A DNA stretch of 32,965 nt from the IMG/VR virus record IMGVR_UViG_3300030106_004540, positions 1 to 32,965 of that record; one strand, written 5' to 3'. Source of the DNA: a virus. The notes beneath the pieces are model-generated. The model saw only the letters and a list, made by a program, of their open reading frames with translations. It was not told the origin of the DNA and made no database searches. Positions 12,078 through 25,204 of this stretch are shown in pieces. Every line of letters begins with the position of its first letter. Position 1 is the stretch's first letter. The translations under genes and the position numbers were made by a program.

Positions 12078-12356
12078 ATGTTAGAGCACAATAAATCCTA
12101 CGTAATAAGTGGAGAAAAAATACTCAAGTTATTAGAATTGATTGAGGACTTGAGAGATATTGCAGGTGACTATGCGCACGAGACTGGAAGTGGATATGAA
12201 ATCGAGGATGATTTCGAGAAATTAATTGAGGAAGTCTTGAAATCTGATATTTTTTCGGAGATAGACCTTTGTCAAGTAACAGGTCAGTATACCTTAAATG
12301 ATATAATGGAAAGGGTTGGATTAAAATATTCAACAAATAGTAATGGACAGAAATAA
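12078..12356 (+). CDS. Small acidic protein before terminase, unknown function
   Basis: A 92-residue acidic, helical protein starting on the base after the upstream stop and overlapping the terminase start by 14 bases, so translation is probably coupled on both sides. Visible segments: YVISGEKILKLLELIEDLRD, IEDDFEKLIEEVLKSDIFSE and TLNDIMERVGLKY. No metal site, membrane segment or catalytic motif is present. Position immediately before gp17 makes it a candidate small terminase subunit or packaging accessory, though it is shorter than T4 gp16 (about 164 aa). Function unknown. Confidence 0.6.
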   Translation: MLEHNKSYVISGEKILKLLELIEDLRDIAGDYAHETGSGYEIEDDFEKLIEEVLKSDIFSEIDLCQVTGQYTLNDIMERVGLKYSTNSNGQK

Positions 12357-13926
12357 AAAGGGTCAATTAAAAAGTGTGATAAAGCAGGAGTACGTGAAAT
12401 GTGCTGCCGACCCGGTATATTTCTTAAAAAAGTATTGTGTGATACAACATCCTATAAAAGGTAAGATACCATTTCATTTATATGATTTTCAAGAAAAAAC
12501 AGTTAGTGATTTGGTCACAAATAGATTAAACATAATTTTAAAAGCTAGACAATTAGGTATATCAACTTTAACAGCTGGATACTCTTTATGGATGATGACA
12601 TTTCATCAAGATAAAAATATATTAGTCATAGCTACTAAACAAGAGGTAGCTAAGAACTTGGTAACAAAAGTAAGGGTTATGCATGCTAATTTACCAAGTT
12701 GGTTAAAACAAACTTGCGTTGAGGACAATAAACTTAGTCTAAGATATAATAATGGTTCACAAATAAAAGCGGTATCAAGTGGGGAAGATAGTGGTCGTTC
12801 AGAAGCTCTATCATTATTGATATTGGATGAGGCAGCGTTCATAGAAAAGATTGATGGTATATGGGCAGCGGCATCACAGACCTTATCAACTGGTGGACAA
12901 TGTATAGCTTTATCAACCCCTAATGGTGTTGGTAATTGGTTTCATAGAACGTGGATGGACGCAATGGATGGGTTGAACGATTTTAATTTTACCAAGTTAC
13001 ATTGGACTGCACATCCTGATAGGGGTGAGGATTGGAGAAAAGAGCAGGATAAACTGTTAGGCCCATCGATGGCGGCGCAAGAATGTGATTGTGACTTTAT
13101 TACATCTGGTCAATCCGTGGTTGATGGACTTATCTTAGAGGAATATAGGCAGAAACATTTACAAGAACCAATCGAAAAAAGAGGTGTTGATTCTAATGTT
13201 TGGATATGGGAACCACCAAATTACACGAAAGATTACATAGTGTGCGCGGATGTTAGTAGAGGAGACTCAACGGACTATTCAGCATTCCACATTTTAGATG
13301 TTGAGAGTTTAGAACAAGTGGCTGAGTATAAAGGTAGAATGTCAACAAGAGATTATGGTAATTTACTTGTGAATATATCCACCGAATATAATAATGCATT
13401 ACTTGTTATTGAGAATAACAACATTGGTTGGGCAACTATTCAACAAGTGATTGATAGGGGATATGAAAATCTATTCTATATGAGTAAGGATTTACAAGTT
13501 GTTGATGTTCACAGACAGGTCAACAATAAAATAAATAGAGCGGAAAAAGGATTAGTTCCTGGCTTTACACTTACATCAAAGACAAGACCCTTAGTAATAG
13601 CTAAATTAGAGGAGTTTTTTAGGGAAAAATCCGTAATAGTTCGCTCTCAGCGATTAATTGACGAGTTGTTTGTATTTATATATAATGGAAGTAGAGCCGA
13701 GGCTATGAGAGGATATAATGATGACTTAGTCATGTCGTTATCAATGGGTCTTTGGATAAGAGAGACAGCCCTAAGACTAAGAGCAGAAGGTATAGAATTA
13801 CAAAAAACAGCAATAACAAATATAAATTCACATAAAGGAATTTATACAAACGAAATCCAAAAGAATGATTCTTGGACTATGAAAGTCAACAAACAACAAG
13901 AATCATTAGAGTGGTTAATTAAGTGA
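12343..13926 (+). CDS. 17: Terminase large subunit, T4 gp17-like
   Basis: A 527-residue packaging motor: an ATPase that pumps DNA through the portal and a nuclease that cuts genome units. ATPase motifs: Walker-A-like KARQLGIST at 67-75 (T4 has SRQLGKT), Walker B LLILDEAAF at 158-166 with D162/E163, and the coupling motif STPNG at 191-195. The RNase-H-like nuclease shows VCADVSRGDSTDYSAF with D303, LLVIENNN with E357, and NDDLV at 459-463. Length is near that of T4 gp17 (610 aa) without its extended N-terminus. The ATG lies within the preceding gene, implying coupled translation. The portal gene follows 8 bases later. T4 has gp18 and gp19 between gp17 and gp20; they are absent here. Confidence 0.95.
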   Translation: MDRNKKGQLKSVIKQEYVKCAADPVYFLKKYCVIQHPIKGKIPFHLYDFQEKTVSDLVTNRLNIILKARQLGISTLTAGYSLWMMTFHQDKNILVIATKQEVAKNLVTKVRVMHANLPSWLKQTCVEDNKLSLRYNNGSQIKAVSSGEDSGRSEALSLLILDEAAFIEKIDGIWAAASQTLSTGGQCIALSTPNGVGNWFHRTWMDAMDGLNDFNFTKLHWTAHPDRGEDWRKEQDKLLGPSMAAQECDCDFITSGQSVVDGLILEEYRQKHLQEPIEKRGVDSNVWIWEPPNYTKDYIVCADVSRGDSTDYSAFHILDVESLEQVAEYKGRMSTRDYGNLLVNISTEYNNALLVIENNNIGWATIQQVIDRGYENLFYMSKDLQVVDVHRQVNNKINRAEKGLVPGFTLTSKTRPLVIAKLEEFFREKSVIVRSQRLIDELFVFIYNGSRAEAMRGYNDDLVMSLSMGLWIRETALRLRAEGIELQKTAITNINSHKGIYTNEIQKNDSWTMKVNKQQESLEWLIK

Positions 13927-13934
13927 GGTAAAAA

Positions 13935-15749
13935 ATGGCAGATACAAGTTTATTTGCAAGACTACAAAGATTATTTTCTACAAATGTAATTGTAAGAAAT
14001 GTTGGTGGTAAACAACTAAGAGTGGCTGATACAAGTAGGACACAAGCATATTCTCGTAGTAATTTAGTGGATAGATATCAAAAAATATATGCTGGTGCAG
14101 GTCTAAGTGGGTATTCCGATAGTCTTACCACAAAATCAATGAGATTAAATTTGTTTCAAGATTATGAGGCGATGGATGCTGATGCAATAATATCATCAGC
14201 GCTAGACATTTACTCTGATGAATCAACAATGAAATCCGAGTATGGTGAAGTATTAACCATAAATTCGAGTAATGACCAAATTAAAAAAATCCTCCATAAT
14301 CTTTTTTACGATATATTGAATATAGAATTCAATTTATGGCCTTGGATAAGAAATATGTGTAAGTATGGGGATTTCTTTTTGAAGCTAGAAATAGATGAAA
14401 AATATGGTATAACAAATGTTATACCTTTACCTGTATATGATGTTACGAGATTAGAGGGTTTAGACCCGGAGAATCCTGAGTTTGTCAAGTTTGTAATAGA
14501 AGCAGATAGTCAACCATCTCGATATAAAAAACAAAATTCCTCAACAAAAGAAGAATTAGAAAACTTTCAGGTGGCTCACTTTAGGTTACTCTCCGATTCA
14601 AATTATCTACCTTATGGTAAATCACAGATTGAGGGTGGTAGAAAAATATATAAACAATTAACACTTATGGAAGATGCCATGTTAATTCATCGTATCATGA
14701 GAGCGCCAGAAAAAAGAGTGTTCAAGTTAGATATCGGTAACATACCACCTGCCGAGGTTGACAATTATATGCAACAGGTTATAAACAAAATGAAAAAAAC
14801 ACCTATTATTGATGAGACGACAGGTGATTATAACCTACGATATAATATGCAAAACATCACAGAGGATTTTTTCTTACCCGTTCGTGGTGGAGATAGTGGT
14901 ACGAGTATTGATTCATTACCTGGTCTTACATATGAGGCGACTGAGGATATAGAGTATTTAAAAAATAAATTATTATCATCACTTAGAATACCAAAAGCAT
15001 TTTTAGGATTTGAGGAAAATGTAGGTTCCAAAGCAACTTTAGCGGCAGAAGACGTAAGATTTGCCAGAACAATCGAGAGAATACAAAGAATATCTGTAAG
15101 TGAATTGACTAAGATAGCTATCGTACATTTATACGCACAAGGATATCAAGATAGTGATTTAATTGACTTCGATTTAAAACTAACGAGTCCGTCTACAATT
15201 TATGAACAAGAAAAGATAGAGTTGTGGGATTCAAAGACAAGATTAGCATCATCAATGTTACAGGATGGTTTATTATCATCGGAATGGATATACAAAAATA
15301 TATTTAATTTTACCGATGATGAAATAAAAGAAGAAGACAAGGGTATTGTTGATGATTATAAACAAAAGTTTAGACGTTCTCAGATTGAAAATGAGGGTAA
15401 TGACCCACAAGAGAGTGGTGAAGCACAAGGGACTCCATCAGATATGGCGATGGGTAGAACAGGTCACGAGTTAGATGATAAGGGCGGAGCACCTGAGGGT
15501 GGTTTCGAGGGCGCAGGTAGACCAAAAGAGATACCAAAGTATGGTAAAGATGGTAGCGCAAGAGGTCGTGACCCTTTAGGAAATGTGGATAGGAAAAACG
15601 CCACAAAATCAAATAGGACTTTAGCATTAGCCCACTTTGATAAACTTAAAAAATCTATGAAGTTAGATAATGAGACTAAAATTTTAAATGAGACAACTGA
15701 ATTAGAAAAGGAATATATTGACGAAGTTGATTCACTTACAAATGAATAA
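13935..15749 (+). CDS. 20: Portal vertex protein, T4 gp20-like
   Basis: A 604-residue protein with GAGGT upstream of the ATG, directly after the terminase. It would form the dodecameric ring at the unique head vertex: nucleation point of head assembly, DNA channel, and docking site for terminase and then the neck. Supporting segments are typical of T4-like portals: LFQDYEAMDADAIISSALDI near residue 80, WPWIRNMCKYGDFFLKLEI near 135, PLPVYDVTRLEG, MEDAMLIHRIMRAPEKRVF near 250, and LLSSLRIPKAFLGFEE near 350 followed by an ATLAAEDVRFARTIERIQ helix. The C-terminal ~100 residues are polar and Gly-rich. A possible promoter motif and the prohead core genes follow. Confidence 0.93.
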   Translation: MADTSLFARLQRLFSTNVIVRNVGGKQLRVADTSRTQAYSRSNLVDRYQKIYAGAGLSGYSDSLTTKSMRLNLFQDYEAMDADAIISSALDIYSDESTMKSEYGEVLTINSSNDQIKKILHNLFYDILNIEFNLWPWIRNMCKYGDFFLKLEIDEKYGITNVIPLPVYDVTRLEGLDPENPEFVKFVIEADSQPSRYKKQNSSTKEELENFQVAHFRLLSDSNYLPYGKSQIEGGRKIYKQLTLMEDAMLIHRIMRAPEKRVFKLDIGNIPPAEVDNYMQQVINKMKKTPIIDETTGDYNLRYNMQNITEDFFLPVRGGDSGTSIDSLPGLTYEATEDIEYLKNKLLSSLRIPKAFLGFEENVGSKATLAAEDVRFARTIERIQRISVSELTKIAIVHLYAQGYQDSDLIDFDLKLTSPSTIYEQEKIELWDSKTRLASSMLQDGLLSSEWIYKNIFNFTDDEIKEEDKGIVDDYKQKFRRSQIENEGNDPQESGEAQGTPSDMAMGRTGHELDDKGGAPEGGFEGAGRPKEIPKYGKDGSARGRDPLGNVDRKNATKSNRTLALAHFDKLKKSMKLDNETKILNETTELEKEYIDEVDSLTNE

Positions 15750-17497: not shown

Positions 17498-18109
17498 GTG
17501 AATAAGCAACTAATAGTAGATTATCTACCATTTGAAATAGAACCAGACCAAATTAACGAATCCATAAAAGAAAATAATGGAAAGTTAATAGTCAAGGGTG
17601 TATTACAAAGGGCTGAATCTAAAAATCAGAACGGAAGAGTATACCCAAAAGATATTTTGATGAGAGAAGCTAAAAAGTATACTGAGGAATTTATAGACCA
17701 AAGAAGAGCCATGGGTGAGTTAGACCATCCAGAGTCTTCAGTAGTAAATCTACAGAACGTCTCCCATAACGTAAAGAAGATGCATTTTGAAGGTGATAAC
17801 CTAATGGGCGAGGTAGAGGTGTTAGGCACACCAAGTGGTAATATATTAAAAGAATTATTTAAATCGGGTATTAAGTTAGGTATATCCTCAAGAGGTATGG
17901 GTTCGGTTGAGACCGTAAATGAGAATGGACACGAGGCCCAAGAGGTACAACCTGATTTTGAACTTATAGCTTTTGATTTTGTTTCAAATCCATCAACACA
18001 CGGTGCTTTTATGTATCCTGTAAATGAAGGAGTCGAAAAAAAAGAGGGACGAACTTGCGGTGACTATTGTAAGGTTGAGACAATCATCAACGATATAATG
18101 AGGGGTTAG
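17498..18109 (+). CDS. 21: Prohead core protease, T4 gp21-like
   Basis: A 203-residue protease that would sit in the prohead core and cleave scaffold, capsid and internal proteins after Glu. It starts at GTG 17498 with AAGGAG at 17486-17491. Signatures of T4 gp21: GVLQRAESKNQNGRVYPK near 34-51, MGELDHPES at 72-80 supplying the catalytic His77, and KLGISSRGMGSVE at 126-138 supplying the catalytic Ser (130/131). Length is close to T4 gp21 (212 aa). Two motifs suggest self-processing: INE21-S near the N-terminus and VNE177-G near the C-terminus. The latter matches the repeated VNE motifs in neighbouring genes. The next ATG abuts the stop codon. Confidence 0.92.
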   Translation: MNKQLIVDYLPFEIEPDQINESIKENNGKLIVKGVLQRAESKNQNGRVYPKDILMREAKKYTEEFIDQRRAMGELDHPESSVVNLQNVSHNVKKMHFEGDNLMGEVEVLGTPSGNILKELFKSGIKLGISSRGMGSVETVNENGHEAQEVQPDFELIAFDFVSNPSTHGAFMYPVNEGVEKKEGRTCGDYCKVETIINDIMRG

Positions 18110-18701: not shown

Positions 18702-19378
18702 TTAAGTTAAAAAACATAATGAACGAAAATTATTGGACTGGTCGTAAGTTTGGTGAAGCATTACCGACCTTAAGATTAGAACAAGATGAGCCGGAACATT
18801 TCGGTGGTGGTGAAAACATAAAGATTTTAGATTATCAGACAAAACACTTTGATATATGTCGTTCGGCCGTAATACTTTATCAAAGATTAGTAAAAGATGT
18901 CGATAACACCGATGCACAAGAATTAATCTTAAGCTCAGCAAAACAACTTGACCACCTTTTCGAAATGGAAAAACAGGTTGTTAGGGGTGAGGAGTTAGAC
19001 CATGACCCAATTGATATGAGTGTTGAGATTGTAAACATTGTATCTTATCAGTTAGGTCGTATTGGTGGTATGATTAATGATGACTTTGAGAGAGATACAA
19101 ACTTTCTTAAACTACACGTGATGGAAATCATAAACAGAAAAGATAGTATTAAGATAGCTGATAAACAAGAAGAAGAACCTGTTGATGAAAACTTAAACTC
19201 TCATGAGAAAATGCTTTCTAAAGCATTTAAAACGACAGACAAGACAGAAATAAAAGGTATCGATAGATTAATCGGTATGTCTCAGATTGGTGATGTCCTA
19301 AAGATGCAAAAAAGGAATCCAAAAAATTTTAAAAAAATGATAAATAGAATCGGAAAAATGGGTGACATCAGTAAGTAA
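18698..19378 (+). CDS. Putative internal head protein, paralogous N-terminus
   Basis: 226 residues, start overlapping the preceding stop (ATGA). N-terminus MIKLKNIMNE-N matches the capsid-targeting layout with Asn rather than Ala after the cut, followed by YWTGRKFGEALPTL shared with the gene before. The middle is mostly helical (KHFDICRSAVILYQRLVKD, AKQLDHLFEMEKQVV), the C-terminal part basic (MQKRNPKNFKKMINRIGKM). No catalytic motif is recognised. The end overlaps the DUF3008-like gene by 17 bases. Likely made with the prohead core; whether it is injected is unknown. Confidence 0.7.
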   Translation: MIKLKNIMNENYWTGRKFGEALPTLRLEQDEPEHFGGGENIKILDYQTKHFDICRSAVILYQRLVKDVDNTDAQELILSSAKQLDHLFEMEKQVVRGEELDHDPIDMSVEIVNIVSYQLGRIGGMINDDFERDTNFLKLHVMEIINRKDSIKIADKQEEEPVDENLNSHEKMLSKAFKTTDKTEIKGIDRLIGMSQIGDVLKMQKRNPKNFKKMINRIGKMGDISK

Positions 19379-20357
19379 AGCACAACAAAGATTTATGGGA
19401 TTGGTTCACGCTTACAAAAAGGGTGAGGTTCCAGCTAGTAAAGTCAGTCAGGCAGTAAAGGACGCAGCCAAATCAATGAAGAAGAAGTCTACTAAAAAAA
19501 TGGCTTCCACAAAACATAAGGGTCTACCTAATAAGGTAAGAAGTGAGAACATGAATGAGGATGGACATACAGACGTAGCATCAGCTGAGAGAAAACTCAA
19601 ACTGATTATGAAAGATGCTATGGATACACTCAATGCTTTACGTAGTTTATCTAACGAGGACTCACTACCAAGTTGGTGGACTGATAAGATTACACTAGCT
19701 AAAGATTATGTTGGTAAGTCTCGTGATTACATTATGAATCCAGCTGAATCCGTAAATGAAGAATCAAAAACAATAAAATCTATTCAGAATCTAGCAGATA
19801 AAAATAAGTATGGTACTGTATCAGGAACTAGGATGAATGGTAAGACTGCTAGAGAGATTATAGCTATTTATAATCATCCAAAGATGAAAAGTTTTCGTGG
19901 TAAAATGGATAAACTAAAATCACATGAACTAATGGATTTGACTATTCGTTTACCAAAAATATTAGGTATCAAGGTTGAATCCGTAAATGAAAAAACTATA
20001 TCTATCGGTGGTGAAGATTTAATGAAATACTTGATGAAAAGGTTTAAGATGAGTAAGAGTCAAGCAATCGCTTCAATGAAAAAACACAAAATGGATATGT
20101 CTTTTCTAAAAAAAGAATCCGTAAATGAGGCCGTAGAACCAAGAGGTAATATAAAAAAAGTTCTTGATGTGGCAAAAAACAAACAAGCTAAAAAGATTGG
20201 TGGTACTCTTGTAGATGGAACTACTGCAAATATGATGACTCAAGTTTGGAATAAGGTAAACGACTCAAGTAAAGAAAAAATGAATAAGATGAATACAAAA
20301 CAACTTATCAATTTAATTCTAAGAATGTGGAAAGCAATGGGGACACCAAGAGTATGA
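19362..20357 (+). CDS. DUF3008-like protein with repeated ESVNE linkers, possible prohead polyprotein
   Basis: 331 residues from GTG 19362, inside the previous gene's end. Residues ~4-60 (SKAQQRFMGLVHAYKKGEVP, ... STKHKGLPNKV) fit DUF3008 as I remember it, a small basic domain of unknown function. The rest is divided by near-identical linkers: ENMNE-D near 66, then ESVNE-E, ESVNE-K and ESVNE-A, with the 13-mer AATCCGTAAATGA repeated at 19747, 19979 and 20117. Segments between them are small, basic and helical, including KMSKSQAIASMKKHKMDMS and a last module ending TKQLINLILRMWKAMG. The Glu-ended linkers, also found in gp21's own C-terminus (VNE-G), suggest cleavage into about five small proteins. 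Functions of the pieces are unknown; small nucleic-acid-binding domains are one possibility. Confidence 0.7.
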   Translation: MTSVSKAQQRFMGLVHAYKKGEVPASKVSQAVKDAAKSMKKKSTKKMASTKHKGLPNKVRSENMNEDGHTDVASAERKLKLIMKDAMDTLNALRSLSNEDSLPSWWTDKITLAKDYVGKSRDYIMNPAESVNEESKTIKSIQNLADKNKYGTVSGTRMNGKTAREIIAIYNHPKMKSFRGKMDKLKSHELMDLTIRLPKILGIKVESVNEKTISIGGEDLMKYLMKRFKMSKSQAIASMKKHKMDMSFLKKESVNEAVEPRGNIKKVLDVAKNKQAKKIGGTLVDGTTANMMTQVWNKVNDSSKEKMNKMNTKQLINLILRMWKAMGTPRV

Positions 20358-21371: not shown

Positions 21372-21380
21372 ATATTTATA
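21372..21380 (+). promoter_or_regulatory. Recurring ATATTTATA motif
   Basis: ATATTTATA starts on the base after the stop of the preceding gene and 29 bases before ATG 21401. It is followed by TTTG, giving TATATTTG. One of six such motifs in gaps; promoter role inferred. Confidence 0.35.
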
Positions 21381-21400: not shown

Positions 21401-22069
21401 ATGAAAAAGAAAAGTTTATTCAAAGAACATTTTAACACGGTAATAGGTGGTGTTGTGTCACAAAAACCTTTTGCTACTAACATGAGTTTAACAAATTTAG
21501 TTAAAGAAAAGTATGGTAATGTTGAGGAAGAAAAAGTTGACGTAAAAGGTTTGACTAATGAGTTATCAAGTTTTGGTAGTTTGGGTGAGACAATTTTCGG
21601 TAAATCAAACATTAAAAGTGTGGCGGAAAAGTTAAGCTGGATTGCTAGTCAAGCTAAGAATCACACATTGAGTGAGACCGAAGATTGGTTTGACAAGATT
21701 ACCGTAAATCGTAATATGAAAGAGTTAACAAATCTTTCAAAATCATTCACAAAAATATCTAATGAAGCTAATTCTTTACAACAAAGAATGGGAGCTTTAT
21801 ATGAGGACATGGGTAATATTCTTGGAAGATATTATGACATGAGTGAGGGTCATGTAGATGGTCATGACACAGACGATGATATGACACCTGAAAAAGAAGA
21901 TGATAGTGAGACTAAATTTACAATCGAACAAGGTGATTATGATGAATTTTTTAAATCAGCTATGAAAAAGTTTGGTATAAAATCACCAGCTGACTTAGAT
22001 GATGATGAAAAGAAAAAGTTTTTTAACTATGTCGATGCAAATTATAAAGCAGAGAAAGAAACAGATTAG
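21401..22069 (+). CDS. Acidic helical head-morphogenesis-region protein, unknown function
   Basis: 222 residues with AAGGA at 21389-21393. The N-terminal half is mixed (SLFKEHFNTVIGGVVSQKPF), the middle a coiled-coil helix (NLSKSFTKISNEANSLQQRM), followed by an Asp/Glu-rich region (HDTDDDMTPEKEDDSE) and a small conserved-looking C-terminal helix pair (MKKFGIKSPADLDDDEKKK). No leader ending in a gp21 site is visible. The acidic segment and place before the scaffold suggest a scaffold- or core-associated protein, perhaps analogous to T4 gp67/gp68, but this is not provable from sequence. It is 8 bases upstream of the bS21 gene. Confidence 0.65.
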   Translation: MKKKSLFKEHFNTVIGGVVSQKPFATNMSLTNLVKEKYGNVEEEKVDVKGLTNELSSFGSLGETIFGKSNIKSVAEKLSWIASQAKNHTLSETEDWFDKITVNRNMKELTNLSKSFTKISNEANSLQQRMGALYEDMGNILGRYYDMSEGHVDGHDTDDDMTPEKEDDSETKFTIEQGDYDEFFKSAMKKFGIKSPADLDDDEKKKFFNYVDANYKAEKETD

Positions 22070-22077
22070 AGGTAAAA

Positions 22078-22266
22078 TTGTTATACGTAAAACTCCGTAG
22101 AGGACAGTCTATAGATAGGGCTCTTAGTATTTTAAAGAAAAAAGTCAAAGAGTCAAAGTTAATGTTAGAGCTAAAAGAAAGAGAACATTATACAAAACCA
22201 TCGGCTAAAAAAAGATTAGCACGGGCAAAATCAAAAATAAGACACAAAAAAAGTCTCAAAGGTTAA
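22078..22266 (+). CDS. rpsU: Phage-encoded ribosomal protein bS21 homologue
   Basis: 62 residues from TTG 22078, with AGAGG just upstream. The whole sequence follows the bS21 pattern: a short strand (LYVKLRRGQS), then SIDRALSILKKKVKES, then LELKEREHYTKPSAKKR and a basic tail (LARAKSKIRHKKSLKG). Cellular bS21 is a small-subunit protein near the mRNA exit/anti-Shine-Dalgarno region that aids initiation. Phage bS21 copies are known from environmental phages and are thought to join host ribosomes and favour phage messages. Length fits the family (about 60-70 aa). Its place between head-assembly genes and directly upstream of a structured leader of the scaffold gene is notable. A TTG start and possible attenuated 3' end suggest controlled expression. 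Confidence 0.85.
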   Translation: MLYVKLRRGQSIDRALSILKKKVKESKLMLELKEREHYTKPSAKKRLARAKSKIRHKKSLKG

Positions 22267-22286: not shown

Positions 22287-22295
22287 ATATTTATA
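22287..22295 (+). promoter_or_regulatory. Recurring ATATTTATA motif upstream of scaffold leader
   Basis: ATATTTATA within TATATATTTATATATA, 18 bases before the first hairpin of the scaffold leader. If it is a -10-like element, the transcript would begin close to the foot of that hairpin. Confidence 0.35.
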
Positions 22296-22312
22296 TATAC
22301 AAAAAAAATAAA

Positions 22313-22415
22313 TACACTACGAACACCCGTTCATCATGTAGTGTAACCGAAGAAATTCACATTATAGTTCCCAATAACTATATTAATTCCAACTAATGAT
22401 TATTTATTTAATCAT
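22313..22415 (+). promoter_or_regulatory. Structured 5' leader of scaffold gene: three consecutive stem-loops
   Basis: Three perfect hairpins in the gap before the scaffold gene. H1: TACACTAC (22313-22320) with GTAGTGTA (22338-22345), plus inner GAAC/GTTC (22321-22324, 22329-22332), loop ACCC and a 5-base bulge ATCAT. H2: TATAGTT (22363-22369) with AACTATA (22376-22382), loop CCCAAT. H3: ATGATTA (22396-22402) with TAATCAT (22409-22415), loop TTTATT, ending on the base before the AGGAG ribosome site (22416-22420). None is followed by a T run, so these look like leader structure rather than terminators: mRNA stabilising, translational control, or a protein-binding site. Confidence 0.55.
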
Positions 22416-22427
22416 AGGAGAAAAGTA

Positions 22428-23537
22428 ATGGATGATTTACTAAAAGAAGCCATTGCGGATGCAAAAGCAGTTCGTGAAACAGCTCTTGAAAATGCTAAGA
22501 TTGCATTAGAGGAAGCTTTTACACCTCGTTTACAATCCATGTTATCAAAAAAGATTCAATCTGAAATTGATGTTGAAGAAGGCGCTCATGAAGATGAAGA
22601 AGAAGATGTCGATGAAAGAATGCATGATGAAGAAGAAGATGACGTAGATGAAAAGATGAGACTAAAAGCTGACGATGAAGACCCAACTGATAAAGATTCT
22701 AACGAAGCAATGCATGATGAAGATGAGGATGACGTAGAAGAAAGAATGCACGGTGAAGAAGAGGATGATGAAGTTGAGGAGAGAATGCATGATGAGGATG
22801 ATGATGAAGTTGAAGAAGGCGCACATGAGGAAGATGAAGATGATGTTGATGAGGAACTCGACCTTGAAAGCGTTCTAAAAGAACTTGAAGCAGACTTAGA
22901 TGAAGACGTTGAAGAAGGCGCTCATGAAGATGAAGAAGAAGAAAAAGTTGATGAAAATGATGTTTCTTCAGGTATCGGAGCAGGTGACAACAAAGTCGAC
23001 AAAAAAGCTGGTGATTCAACTGACATCGGTAACGCAGACAAAGCTAAGTTTACGGAATCAGCTGATGAGTTAGACGAAGACATTGACCTTGATGAAGTGT
23101 TAAAAGCTTTAACAGAGGAAGATGAAGAAGAAGTCGCTGAAGAAGTTGATGAAGTCAAACAGCTACAATCTGAGTTAGATGAGCATCGCGAAGTTGTCAA
23201 GTATCTACGTGGCAAATTAAATGAAGTTAACTTGCTTAATGCAAAATTATTATTCACAAACAAACTTTTCCGTGGATTTGGTTTATCCAATGAGCAGAAG
23301 ATGAAAGTTGTGGAAACTTTTGATAGAGCAGCTAACTTAAGAGAGGTAAAATTAGTTTACTCAACATTAGTTGAGTCTTTTCAGACTAAGAAACCTCAAG
23401 AAATCAAAGAATCCAAGGGTTCAGCTTCAAAAGCTGTAGCTTCAACAAAATCTGAAAAACAAGAAATTATTTCTGAAGGTTCAGAGTTGAGAGACAGATT
23501 TAAGAAGTTAGCCGGGATTACTAAATTTAACAGTTAA
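22428..23537 (+). CDS. 22: Prohead scaffold/core protein, T4 gp22-like
   Basis: 369 residues; AGGAG at 22416-22420, 7 bases before ATG. It would form the temporary core around which the capsid assembles. N-terminus MDDLLKE-A carries a gp21-type site, then a helix (DAKAVRETALENAKIALEEAF). Residues ~48-184 are an extreme Asp/Glu region built from repeats such as MHDEEEDDVDEKM and GAHEDEEEE. The C-terminal third is the conserved part: ELDEHREVVKYLRGKLNEV, KLLFTNKLFRGFGLSNEQKM, VVETFDRAANLREVKLVYST, then IISE-GSELRDRFKKLAGI, another site. T4 gp22 is fully degraded by gp21, fitting these sites. Identification rests on position before gp23, composition and the C-terminal region. The acidic repeat is longer than in T4 gp22 (269 aa). 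Confidence 0.88.
   Translation: MDDLLKEAIADAKAVRETALENAKIALEEAFTPRLQSMLSKKIQSEIDVEEGAHEDEEEDVDERMHDEEEDDVDEKMRLKADDEDPTDKDSNEAMHDEDEDDVEERMHGEEEDDEVEERMHDEDDDEVEEGAHEEDEDDVDEELDLESVLKELEADLDEDVEEGAHEDEEEEKVDENDVSSGIGAGDNKVDKKAGDSTDIGNADKAKFTESADELDEDIDLDEVLKALTEEDEEEVAEEVDEVKQLQSELDEHREVVKYLRGKLNEVNLLNAKLLFTNKLFRGFGLSNEQKMKVVETFDRAANLREVKLVYSTLVESFQTKKPQEIKESKGSASKAVASTKSEKQEIISEGSELRDRFKKLAGITKFNS
22572..22946 (+). repeat. Degenerate acidic coding repeats in scaffold gene
   Basis: Imperfect repeats of roughly 40-60 bases encode units of the form (G/R/A)-(A/M)-H-(D/E/G)-(D/E)n-V-(D/E)-E. The string GTTGAAGAAGGCGCTCATGA occurs at both ends of the region (about 22572 and 22909). Each unit carries one His in an acidic run. 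Confidence 0.7.
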
Positions 23538-23560: not shown

Positions 23561-25204
23561 ATGTCAAATAAATTAGGCACTATCGAAAAGTTGATGGATG
23601 GATATAATCCAGTCCGTCAACGAATGGAAGAAACTAAAGGTCTAGTCAAAAAGTGGGAATCCACAGGACTTTTAGAAGGACTCCAAGATGAGCAGAGAAC
23701 TCATGGTATGGCAGTGCTACTTGAGAACCAAGCACGTCAGTTAATTGACGAAGCATCTCAAGCAGGAACCAATAGTGATTCAGAACAATGGTCAGGCGTT
23801 GCTTTACCATTGGTCAGAAAAATCTTTGGTGAGCTAGCCGCACAAGAGTTCGTTTCTGTTCAGCCAATGAACCTACCATCAGGTCTTATTTTCTATCTTG
23901 ATTTCAAGTATGGAAGTGCACAAGGTGGATTTACAAGTGGTAACGATGTATTCGGTCTCACTTCAGGTTCTGGCGACCCAACATCTGGACTATATGGTGC
24001 AGGTCGTTTCGCTTACTCAGCAAATGATACAGCATCAGCAGCTCAGTCAAAAGCAGCATCTGCAGCAGATGGTAACTATGCTACTGGTTCAGTAACTTTC
24101 GACGATATCGACTTTGAACCAGACCTATCCGCATCAATGGCGGCAGGTCCTGATGCTGATAATGGATTAATGAAAGTTGTAGTTTCTACAGCAGCTTTAA
24201 GTGGTTTCGACCCTGAAGGTGTTAGAGCATTCAACATTTCTGGTTCGAACTTTGATGAGTTCTTCCCAGCACATACAAAATTGAATGCAGCTGAAACTGA
24301 AATAACATTTATCGTTAGAAAAGACAGAGCTCAAACACTTGTTGGTAACGTCGTGGTTGATTATCATAAGCAACCAACCGATACATCAAGAGGTGACTTT
24401 GAAGCTACTGCTAGTGGTACAGGCGCAGAATCAGATGCAGGTATACCTGAAATCGATATAGCGATGCGTTCAATTCCTATTGTCGCTAAGACAAGAAAGT
24501 TGAAAGCTGTATGGACACCTGAGTTGGCGCAAGACCTCAATGCATACCATAGTGTAGACGCTGAAGCAGAATTGACTGCTTTACTATCTGAGTACGTATC
24601 AATGGAAATTGATTTAGAAATCTTAGATATGTTAAGAAGCAATGCAACTGCTAAGACAGAAAACTATTCTGCAAAGGTTGGATTTGAGTTTAACTCGGCT
24701 ACAAGCCTGTTTGAAGAAACTTCAGCAAACTCAAATGCATACACAAAAGGTGAGTGGTTCCAGACTCTTGGTAACAAGATACAGTCTGTTTCCAACGCAA
24801 TTCATCAAAAGACCCTACGTGGTGGAGCTAACTTCATCGTTGTAAGTCCTGAAACTGCTACTATCTTAGAATCAATTCCTGGATATGCAACAACTTCAGA
24901 TGGCGATTCAGCTGGTGGAAACTACGCTATGGGTGTTCAGAGAGCTGGTCTCTTGAATAACAGATATACTGTTTACAAGAACCCATATCAGTTCGAGAAC
25001 GTAATCCTTGTTGGTTTCAGAGGTTCAAACTTCTTAGAAACTGGCGCGGTGTACGCACCTTACGTCCCAATGATTATGACACCATTAGTATACGACCCAA
25101 CCAACTTTACTCCACGTAAAGGTGTGATGACTCGTTACGCTAAGAAGATGGTACGTCCTGAATTCTACGGATTAGTAAGAATAGCAGATATTGATAAAGT
25201 CTAA
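23561..25204 (+). CDS. 23: Major capsid protein, T4 gp23-like
   Basis: 547 residues (T4 gp23: 521) forming the head hexamers, HK97 fold by family. N-terminal propeptide ends LIDE64-A65, almost exactly where T4 gp23 is cut by gp21 (FLTE65-A66). The mature start is followed by WSGVALPLVRKIFGELAAQE and VSVQPMNLPSGLIFYLDFKYG (T4: VQPMNSPTGQVF), the strongest match. Later parts: DIAMRSIPIVAKTRKLKAVW, TPELAQDLNAYHSVDAEAEL, FIVVSPETATILESI, and the C-terminal TPLVYDPTNFTPRKGVMTRY with KKMVRPEFYGLVRIADI. Codons look more optimised than in neighbours (more GTC, AAC and TTC), as expected for the most abundant virion protein. A strong terminator follows. No separate gp24 vertex gene is seen. Confidence 0.96.
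   Translation: MSNKLGTIEKLMDGYNPVRQRMEETKGLVKKWESTGLLEGLQDEQRTHGMAVLLENQARQLIDEASQAGTNSDSEQWSGVALPLVRKIFGELAAQEFVSVQPMNLPSGLIFYLDFKYGSAQGGFTSGNDVFGLTSGSGDPTSGLYGAGRFAYSANDTASAAQSKAASAADGNYATGSVTFDDIDFEPDLSASMAAGPDADNGLMKVVVSTAALSGFDPEGVRAFNISGSNFDEFFPAHTKLNAAETEITFIVRKDRAQTLVGNVVVDYHKQPTDTSRGDFEATASGTGAESDAGIPEIDIAMRSIPIVAKTRKLKAVWTPELAQDLNAYHSVDAEAELTALLSEYVSMEIDLEILDMLRSNATAKTENYSAKVGFEFNSATSLFEETSANSNAYTKGEWFQTLGNKIQSVSNAIHQKTLRGGANFIVVSPETATILESIPGYATTSDGDSAGGNYAMGVQRAGLLNNRYTVYKNPYQFENVILVGFRGSNFLETGAVYAPYVPMIMTPLVYDPTNFTPRKGVMTRYAKKMVRPEFYGLVRIADIDKV

Follow-up and report, generated by a model that had tools for sequence, protein, structure and literature searches.

The window, a 32,965-nt stretch of viral DNA that makes up most of a 35.9-kb viral record (IMGVR_UViG_3300030106_004540), encodes a genuine bS21 ribosomal protein under purifying selection at 22078–22266, within the head operon of a phage that, judged by its genes, is a T4-like myovirus. 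Two aspects of its phage group, both read from sequence, are new here. Relatives that carry bS21 concentrate predicted Shine-Dalgarno sequences (SDs) near the capsid gene and behind a candidate late-promoter box while those lacking bS21 have few, and residue 54 of the encoded protein is aliphatic by alignment in the window's group, compared with tyrosine in Bacteroidia. We lean towards the reading that a functional phage bS21 would enter the 30S subunit late in infection and change which mRNAs initiate well. The genes concerned are:

12343–13926, + strand: terminase large subunit (TerL), PHROG 2
13935–15749, + strand: portal protein, PHROG 213
17498–18109, + strand: prohead (head maturation) protease, PHROG 207
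21401–22069, + strand: 222-aa gene preceding bS21, weak match to PHROG 28651
22069–22073, + strand: SD of bS21 (GAGGT), overlapping the TAG stop of the upstream gene (22067–22069)
22078–22266, + strand: phage bS21 gene, TTG start, 62 aa, Ile at residue 54
22428–23537, + strand: acidic scaffold-like protein in the prohead core position, before Gp23 like T4 gene 22
23561–25204, + strand: major capsid protein (MCP) Gp23, Pfam PF07068 at 259 bits, PHROG 138

The initial annotation had read the 62-aa ORF as bS21 along its length and named an HMM search that missed bS21 as grounds for rejection. Pfam, NCBIfam and PHROG all agree with this reading. PF01165 matches residues 4–55 (E 4e-12, 46.1 bits; Pfam cut-off 27 bits) and the NCBIfam equivalog TIGR00030 scores 41.8 bits (cut-off 28.95 bits), so that both curated bS21 cut-offs are exceeded over nearly the full length, while PHROG 21469 ‘ribosomal protein S21’ covers residues 1–61. 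The predicted structure has three helices (pLDDT 80.6), and 10 of its 11 PDB matches, with weak E-values, are bS21 chains or organellar equivalents; the model thus indicates, with modest confidence, that the helical bS21 fold is present. The proposed TTG start also held, as close relatives start bS21 at the same codon, TTG or GTG. Together with a dN/dS of 0.03–0.08 between the window and its nearest four relatives, this shared start argues that the ORF is a real gene; in a second trio of loci the ratio is 0.09–0.12. Only 8 nt separate the stop of the 222-aa gene from the bS21 start and the SD overlaps that stop, so translation of bS21 is probably coupled to that of its upstream neighbor. By identity this is an ordinary gene for a phage: among ribosomal proteins encoded in phage genomes, bS21 is reported to be the most frequent (PMC6375957, PMC9976891).

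Assignment to the T4-like (Gp23) phages follows from the Gp23 capsid, the T4-type portal and the prohead protease; a head-tail adaptor was also identified in the window. bS21 lies between the core genes and the scaffold/capsid pair, as had been claimed, with TerL, portal and protease on its 5′ side and scaffold and MCP on its 3′ side. The scaffold-like gene has an SD of its own (AGGAG at 22416–22420), and its product matched no family in Pfam, NCBIfam or PHROG. Inside the same operon, 19362–20357 encodes a protein whose N-terminal part matches DUF3008 (37.9 bits). The nearest named MCPs are those of Microcystis phage Mel-JY01 (56% identity), the huge phage LR756508 (54%) and Flavobacterium phage immuto (50%), and the capsid of Rhodothermus phage RM378 matches at 37%. 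We refer to the group as far-T4, a name from the literature around RM378.

Among related MCP loci with at least 2.8 kb of upstream sequence, 48 of 60 carry bS21, all on the + strand and in the same region, mostly about 1.1–1.6 kb or 2.4–2.7 kb before the MCP gene. It is present in Mel-JY01 and LR756508 and was not found in immuto. Of more distant T4-like phages HTVC008M has it, and T4, RM378, P-SSM2 and KVP40 do not. On the MCP tree its presence needs four changes, compared with an average of 12.1 in shuffles, none of 500 of which was as low. Eleven bS21-lacking records were searched over their full length and gave no match; in incomplete contigs a missing bS21 does not count as absence. That bS21 might be a neutral passenger, acquired from a host and without function during infection, fits its absence from some clades and nothing else that we saw, and the low dN/dS among the nearest relatives and the constant position in these 48 loci make it very improbable.

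The arrangement is already recorded in an isolate, and the role has already been proposed. In Mel-JY01 (PP395634) the annotation places bS21 between the prohead protease and capsid genes, with all three on one strand, as in the window; this phage differs in that its bS21 gene stands about 1.4 kb ahead of the gene in the scaffold position and encodes an N-terminal extension and Lys54, and in Bacteroidota-type promoters upstream of several genes. The head genes of immuto (NC_055915) follow a similar order and its scaffold leader is related, but this phage is without bS21 and almost without SDs. HTVC008M, like the window phage, is T4-like and encodes a bS21, which has been shown to enter ribosomes (Mizuno 2019, PMC6375957); its MCP, however, is only distantly related (173 bits versus 792–1046 in the window's group), its bS21 lies about 16 kb from the MCP gene, and it is without a late SD bias. 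In the freshwater Bacteroidetes myoviruses of Chen 2022 (PMC9723584) bS21 is near TerL, portal, prohead protease and MCP as here, but on the reverse strand, whereas in the window's group it shares the strand of the head genes. Both the location near head genes and a late takeover of ribosomes have thus been published (Chen 2022, PMC9723584; Mizuno 2019, PMC6375957). That bS21 may favor synthesis of the abundant virion proteins, as Chen 2022 proposed, is plausible for the window as well.

Two boxes and an intergenic leader bear on when these genes may be expressed:

21373–21380, + strand: TATTTATA box, candidate late promoter of the 21401 gene and bS21
22288–22295, + strand: TATTTATA box, candidate late promoter for scaffold and capsid
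22288–22427, + strand: structured leader, a predicted two-hairpin RNA between bS21 and scaffold
22313–22345, + strand: leader hairpin 1, with an 8-bp outer stem, an inner stem and a 3′ bulge; compensatory changes in 6 of 8 outer pairs
22363–22382, + strand: leader hairpin 2, with a 7-bp stem and hexaloop CCCAAU; the group's common form is NNNAAU

In all eight far-T4 genomes and contigs analyzed (8/8), with and without bS21, no 7-mer is more over-represented ahead of genes than TATTTAT, and the full box built on this core, TATTTATA, is about 3- to 14-fold enriched there. Such enrichment is seen in far-T4 contigs G001–G014, immuto and Mel-JY01. T4, HTVC008M and P-SSM2 show TATAAATA instead, which is the established late promoter of T4 and of which TATTTATA is the reverse complement. 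We infer that TATTTATA acts as a late promoter, although in the window alone the signal is weak (8 occurrences on both strands versus 4.2 expected). The first box ends 20 nt before the 222-aa gene, and its position suggests a late two-gene transcript that ends with bS21, followed by a second one, for scaffold and capsid, that would start at the 22288 box. The late expression foreseen by the initial annotation therefore has indirect support, from the box about 20 nt before the preceding gene and from comparable genes: Chen 2022 measured late transcription of phage bS21 genes, together with head genes (PMC9723584).

The adjoining leader is indeed structured, as had been noted, with the bS21–scaffold interval folding 5 s.d. 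better than shuffles (z −5). In a sequence-only alignment of 32 leaders, 99.4% of cells in the two helices are paired and both partners have changed in 11 of 15 pairs; the score for covariation is 0.342, whereas shuffles give 0.119 and slid structures no more than 0.099. A covariance model gave one strong match in the window and 32 matches at E ≤1 among 51 sources, several of them individually weak (E 0.01–1) and, of their sources, only the window used in building the model. All lie on the + strand, and those whose position was checked fall at the scaffold leader, in phages without bS21 too. The implied link between leader and bS21 found no support: the leader precedes the scaffold gene in four loci without bS21 (L105, L106, L116 and L094) and in immuto, and is kept where bS21 is about 1.4 kb distant. 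Since phages without bS21 have it too, the leader follows the scaffold gene and not bS21, and we rejected it as a bS21 operator. For the same reason it is highly unlikely that phage bS21 acts outside the ribosome or regulates itself, for example by binding the leader hairpins, even though the leader lies immediately downstream and is strongly conserved. The leader is a candidate new regulatory RNA independent of bS21; it may be a 5′ stabilizer of the mRNA for the capsid, or else an operator through which the scaffold protein controls its own synthesis. No Rfam family matched it at the gathering threshold. The freshwater-2 RNA (RF02980) resembles it in having a hairpin followed by an SD and start codon, but at 18.8 bits (threshold 49.9, E 1.1) the match is no sign of kinship. 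The conserved two-hairpin leader also stands before the prohead scaffold gene of locus L027.

SDs were scored at the first ATGs of long ORFs against a background of internal ATGs, with gene starts called mechanically. In bS21-bearing phages they are far above this background, and their mean frequency across MCP loci is 0.65 with bS21 (n = 48) and 0.25 without (n = 12); the window stands at 0.53. Within long bS21-bearing contigs, 119 of 215 genes (0.55) within 15 kb of the MCP have an SD compared with 155 of 516 (0.30) at distances above 25 kb (stratified odds ratio 2.98, p 5e-10, which overstates the evidence because the contigs are related); the window was left out of this test as its record stops short of the distant genes. 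Genes behind a TATTTAT box in bS21-bearing phages have SDs in 91 of 152 cases (60%) versus 80 of 278 (29%) for other genes (p 4e-10, inflated by kinship), and relatives lacking bS21 show a trend at a far lower level (6/43, 14%, versus 3/88, 3%; p 0.058). What is observed is a conserved same-strand bS21 in the head operon of a large T4-like group, with SDs concentrated on late and structural genes where bS21 occurs. For single genes the difference between loci with and without bS21 is not significant, neither for the scaffold (38/45 versus 6/10) nor for the MCP (25/50 versus 4/13), and on the MCP tree the association comprises about 3–4 independent changes, too few for significance. There are exceptions in both directions: LR756508 (L026) has bS21 in its head region and no SDs on long ORFs, and locus L073 has SDs and no bS21 in its contig. 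We found no earlier report of the association in the open-licence literature.

Under the reading that we favor, phage bS21 would enter the 30S subunit in the late phase, replacing or joining host bS21, and, sitting next to the 3′ end of 16S rRNA, would alter the initiation preference. The bias would be towards SD-bearing late phage mRNAs, a direction suggested by the lack in phage bS21 of Tyr54, which in Bacteroidia aids sequestering of the anti-SD. By analogy with published systems, we infer that the window's bS21 is incorporated into ribosomes and transcribed late. The bS21 of HTVC008M enters E. coli 70S ribosomes, but ribosomes containing it made only ~5% of the GFP in an E. coli system (PMC6375957). 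The Tyr54 side of the argument comes from Flavobacterium johnsoniae, where this bS21 residue stacks against the tail of 16S rRNA and so contributes to hiding the anti-SD; when bS21 carries Y54A or has lost its C terminus, Flavobacterium ribosomes become 3- to 5-fold better at translating strong-SD mRNAs (PMC9976891). All 61 phage bS21 of Chen 2022 have an aromatic residue 54, from which it was inferred that phage bS21 may work like the host's and keep the anti-SD blocked (PMC9723584). By this residue the window's bS21 is not of the Bacteroidia type that sequesters the anti-SD: its residue 54 aligns as Ile, and its group has mostly Leu, Met, Val or Ala. The Mel-JY01 group has Arg or Lys there, and just four loci of the set have Tyr (L130, L136, L110 and L128). 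The mechanism suggested here thus differs from the published inference. One form of it, in which a late bS21 swap in anti-SD-hiding hosts exposes the anti-SD so that ribosomes read SDs and favor SD-bearing late phage mRNAs, we regard as rather unlikely. The group offers a testable answer, with a bS21 without the anti-SD-blocking residue and SD-bearing late genes in the same phages and both lacking in related clades; if right, this would amount to a virus switching the rule by which ribosomes choose start sites. Two contigs with Tyr54, G004 (L110) and G012 (L136), share the late SD bias, which residue 54 by itself therefore cannot account for.

SD use may instead simply follow the host, with bS21 phages in SD-using hosts and the others in non-SD Bacteroidota; late genes would be SD-rich since they are the most expressed, and bS21 would replenish or replace the host protein with SD preference unchanged. 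We consider this possible, at somewhat less than even chances. It accords with immuto, almost SD-less and infecting Flavobacterium, and with several bS21-bearing contigs that use SDs away from capsid genes too. A residue other than Tyr at 54 is moreover usual outside Bacteroidia (Lys in E. coli), so this residue matters only if the host is a Bacteroidota. T4, HTVC008M and P-SSM2, however, are without a near-capsid SD bias (39/104 near versus 131/380 far when pooled with RM378), and Mel-JY01 has bS21 and SDs, yet its Bacteroidota-type promoters suggest a non-SD host.

Naming the host from bS21 itself, as had been suggested, failed: the protein is short and resembles bS21 of the E. coli and Bacteroidota types to much the same degree, and scanning genomes with the bS21 alignment turned up no relative. 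An MCP search of genomes gave 13 matches, nearly all in metagenome-assembled or uncultured bins, with four contigs in two Flavobacteriales bins and the others in Maricaulis, Woesebacteria, Pelagibacter and an archaeal bin; as a pointer to the host these are no more than suggestive. Searching 395 genomes from a single class and 398 from a single phylum returned only MCP cases already known. Hints of a Bacteroidota host thus come from immuto's host, the Flavobacteriales bins (where binning is weak) and the Mel-JY01 promoters, and none from the window's own contig. A relaxed scan for Bacteroidota promoters, positive in many contigs, was dropped because in a control the late box TATATTTA proved to be a one-mismatch match; after this control only Mel-JY01 remained strong, and contig G005 kept three to four sites. 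Mel-JY01 has eleven to twelve TTG-N17-22-TAnnTTTG sites versus ~0.5 expected, a promoter type of Bacteroidota. Its recorded host, the cyanobacterium Microcystis, may be worth rechecking. Examples of these promoters stand before the genes at 53795, 83440, 129083 and 147281. Genes behind them also carry short SDs (7/11), which counts against the reading that we favor. One Flavobacteriales bin, the NAT55 MAG (NZWA01), contains three different far-T4 contigs (L371, L377 and L380), and both of its bS21 matches sit on two of these phage contigs.
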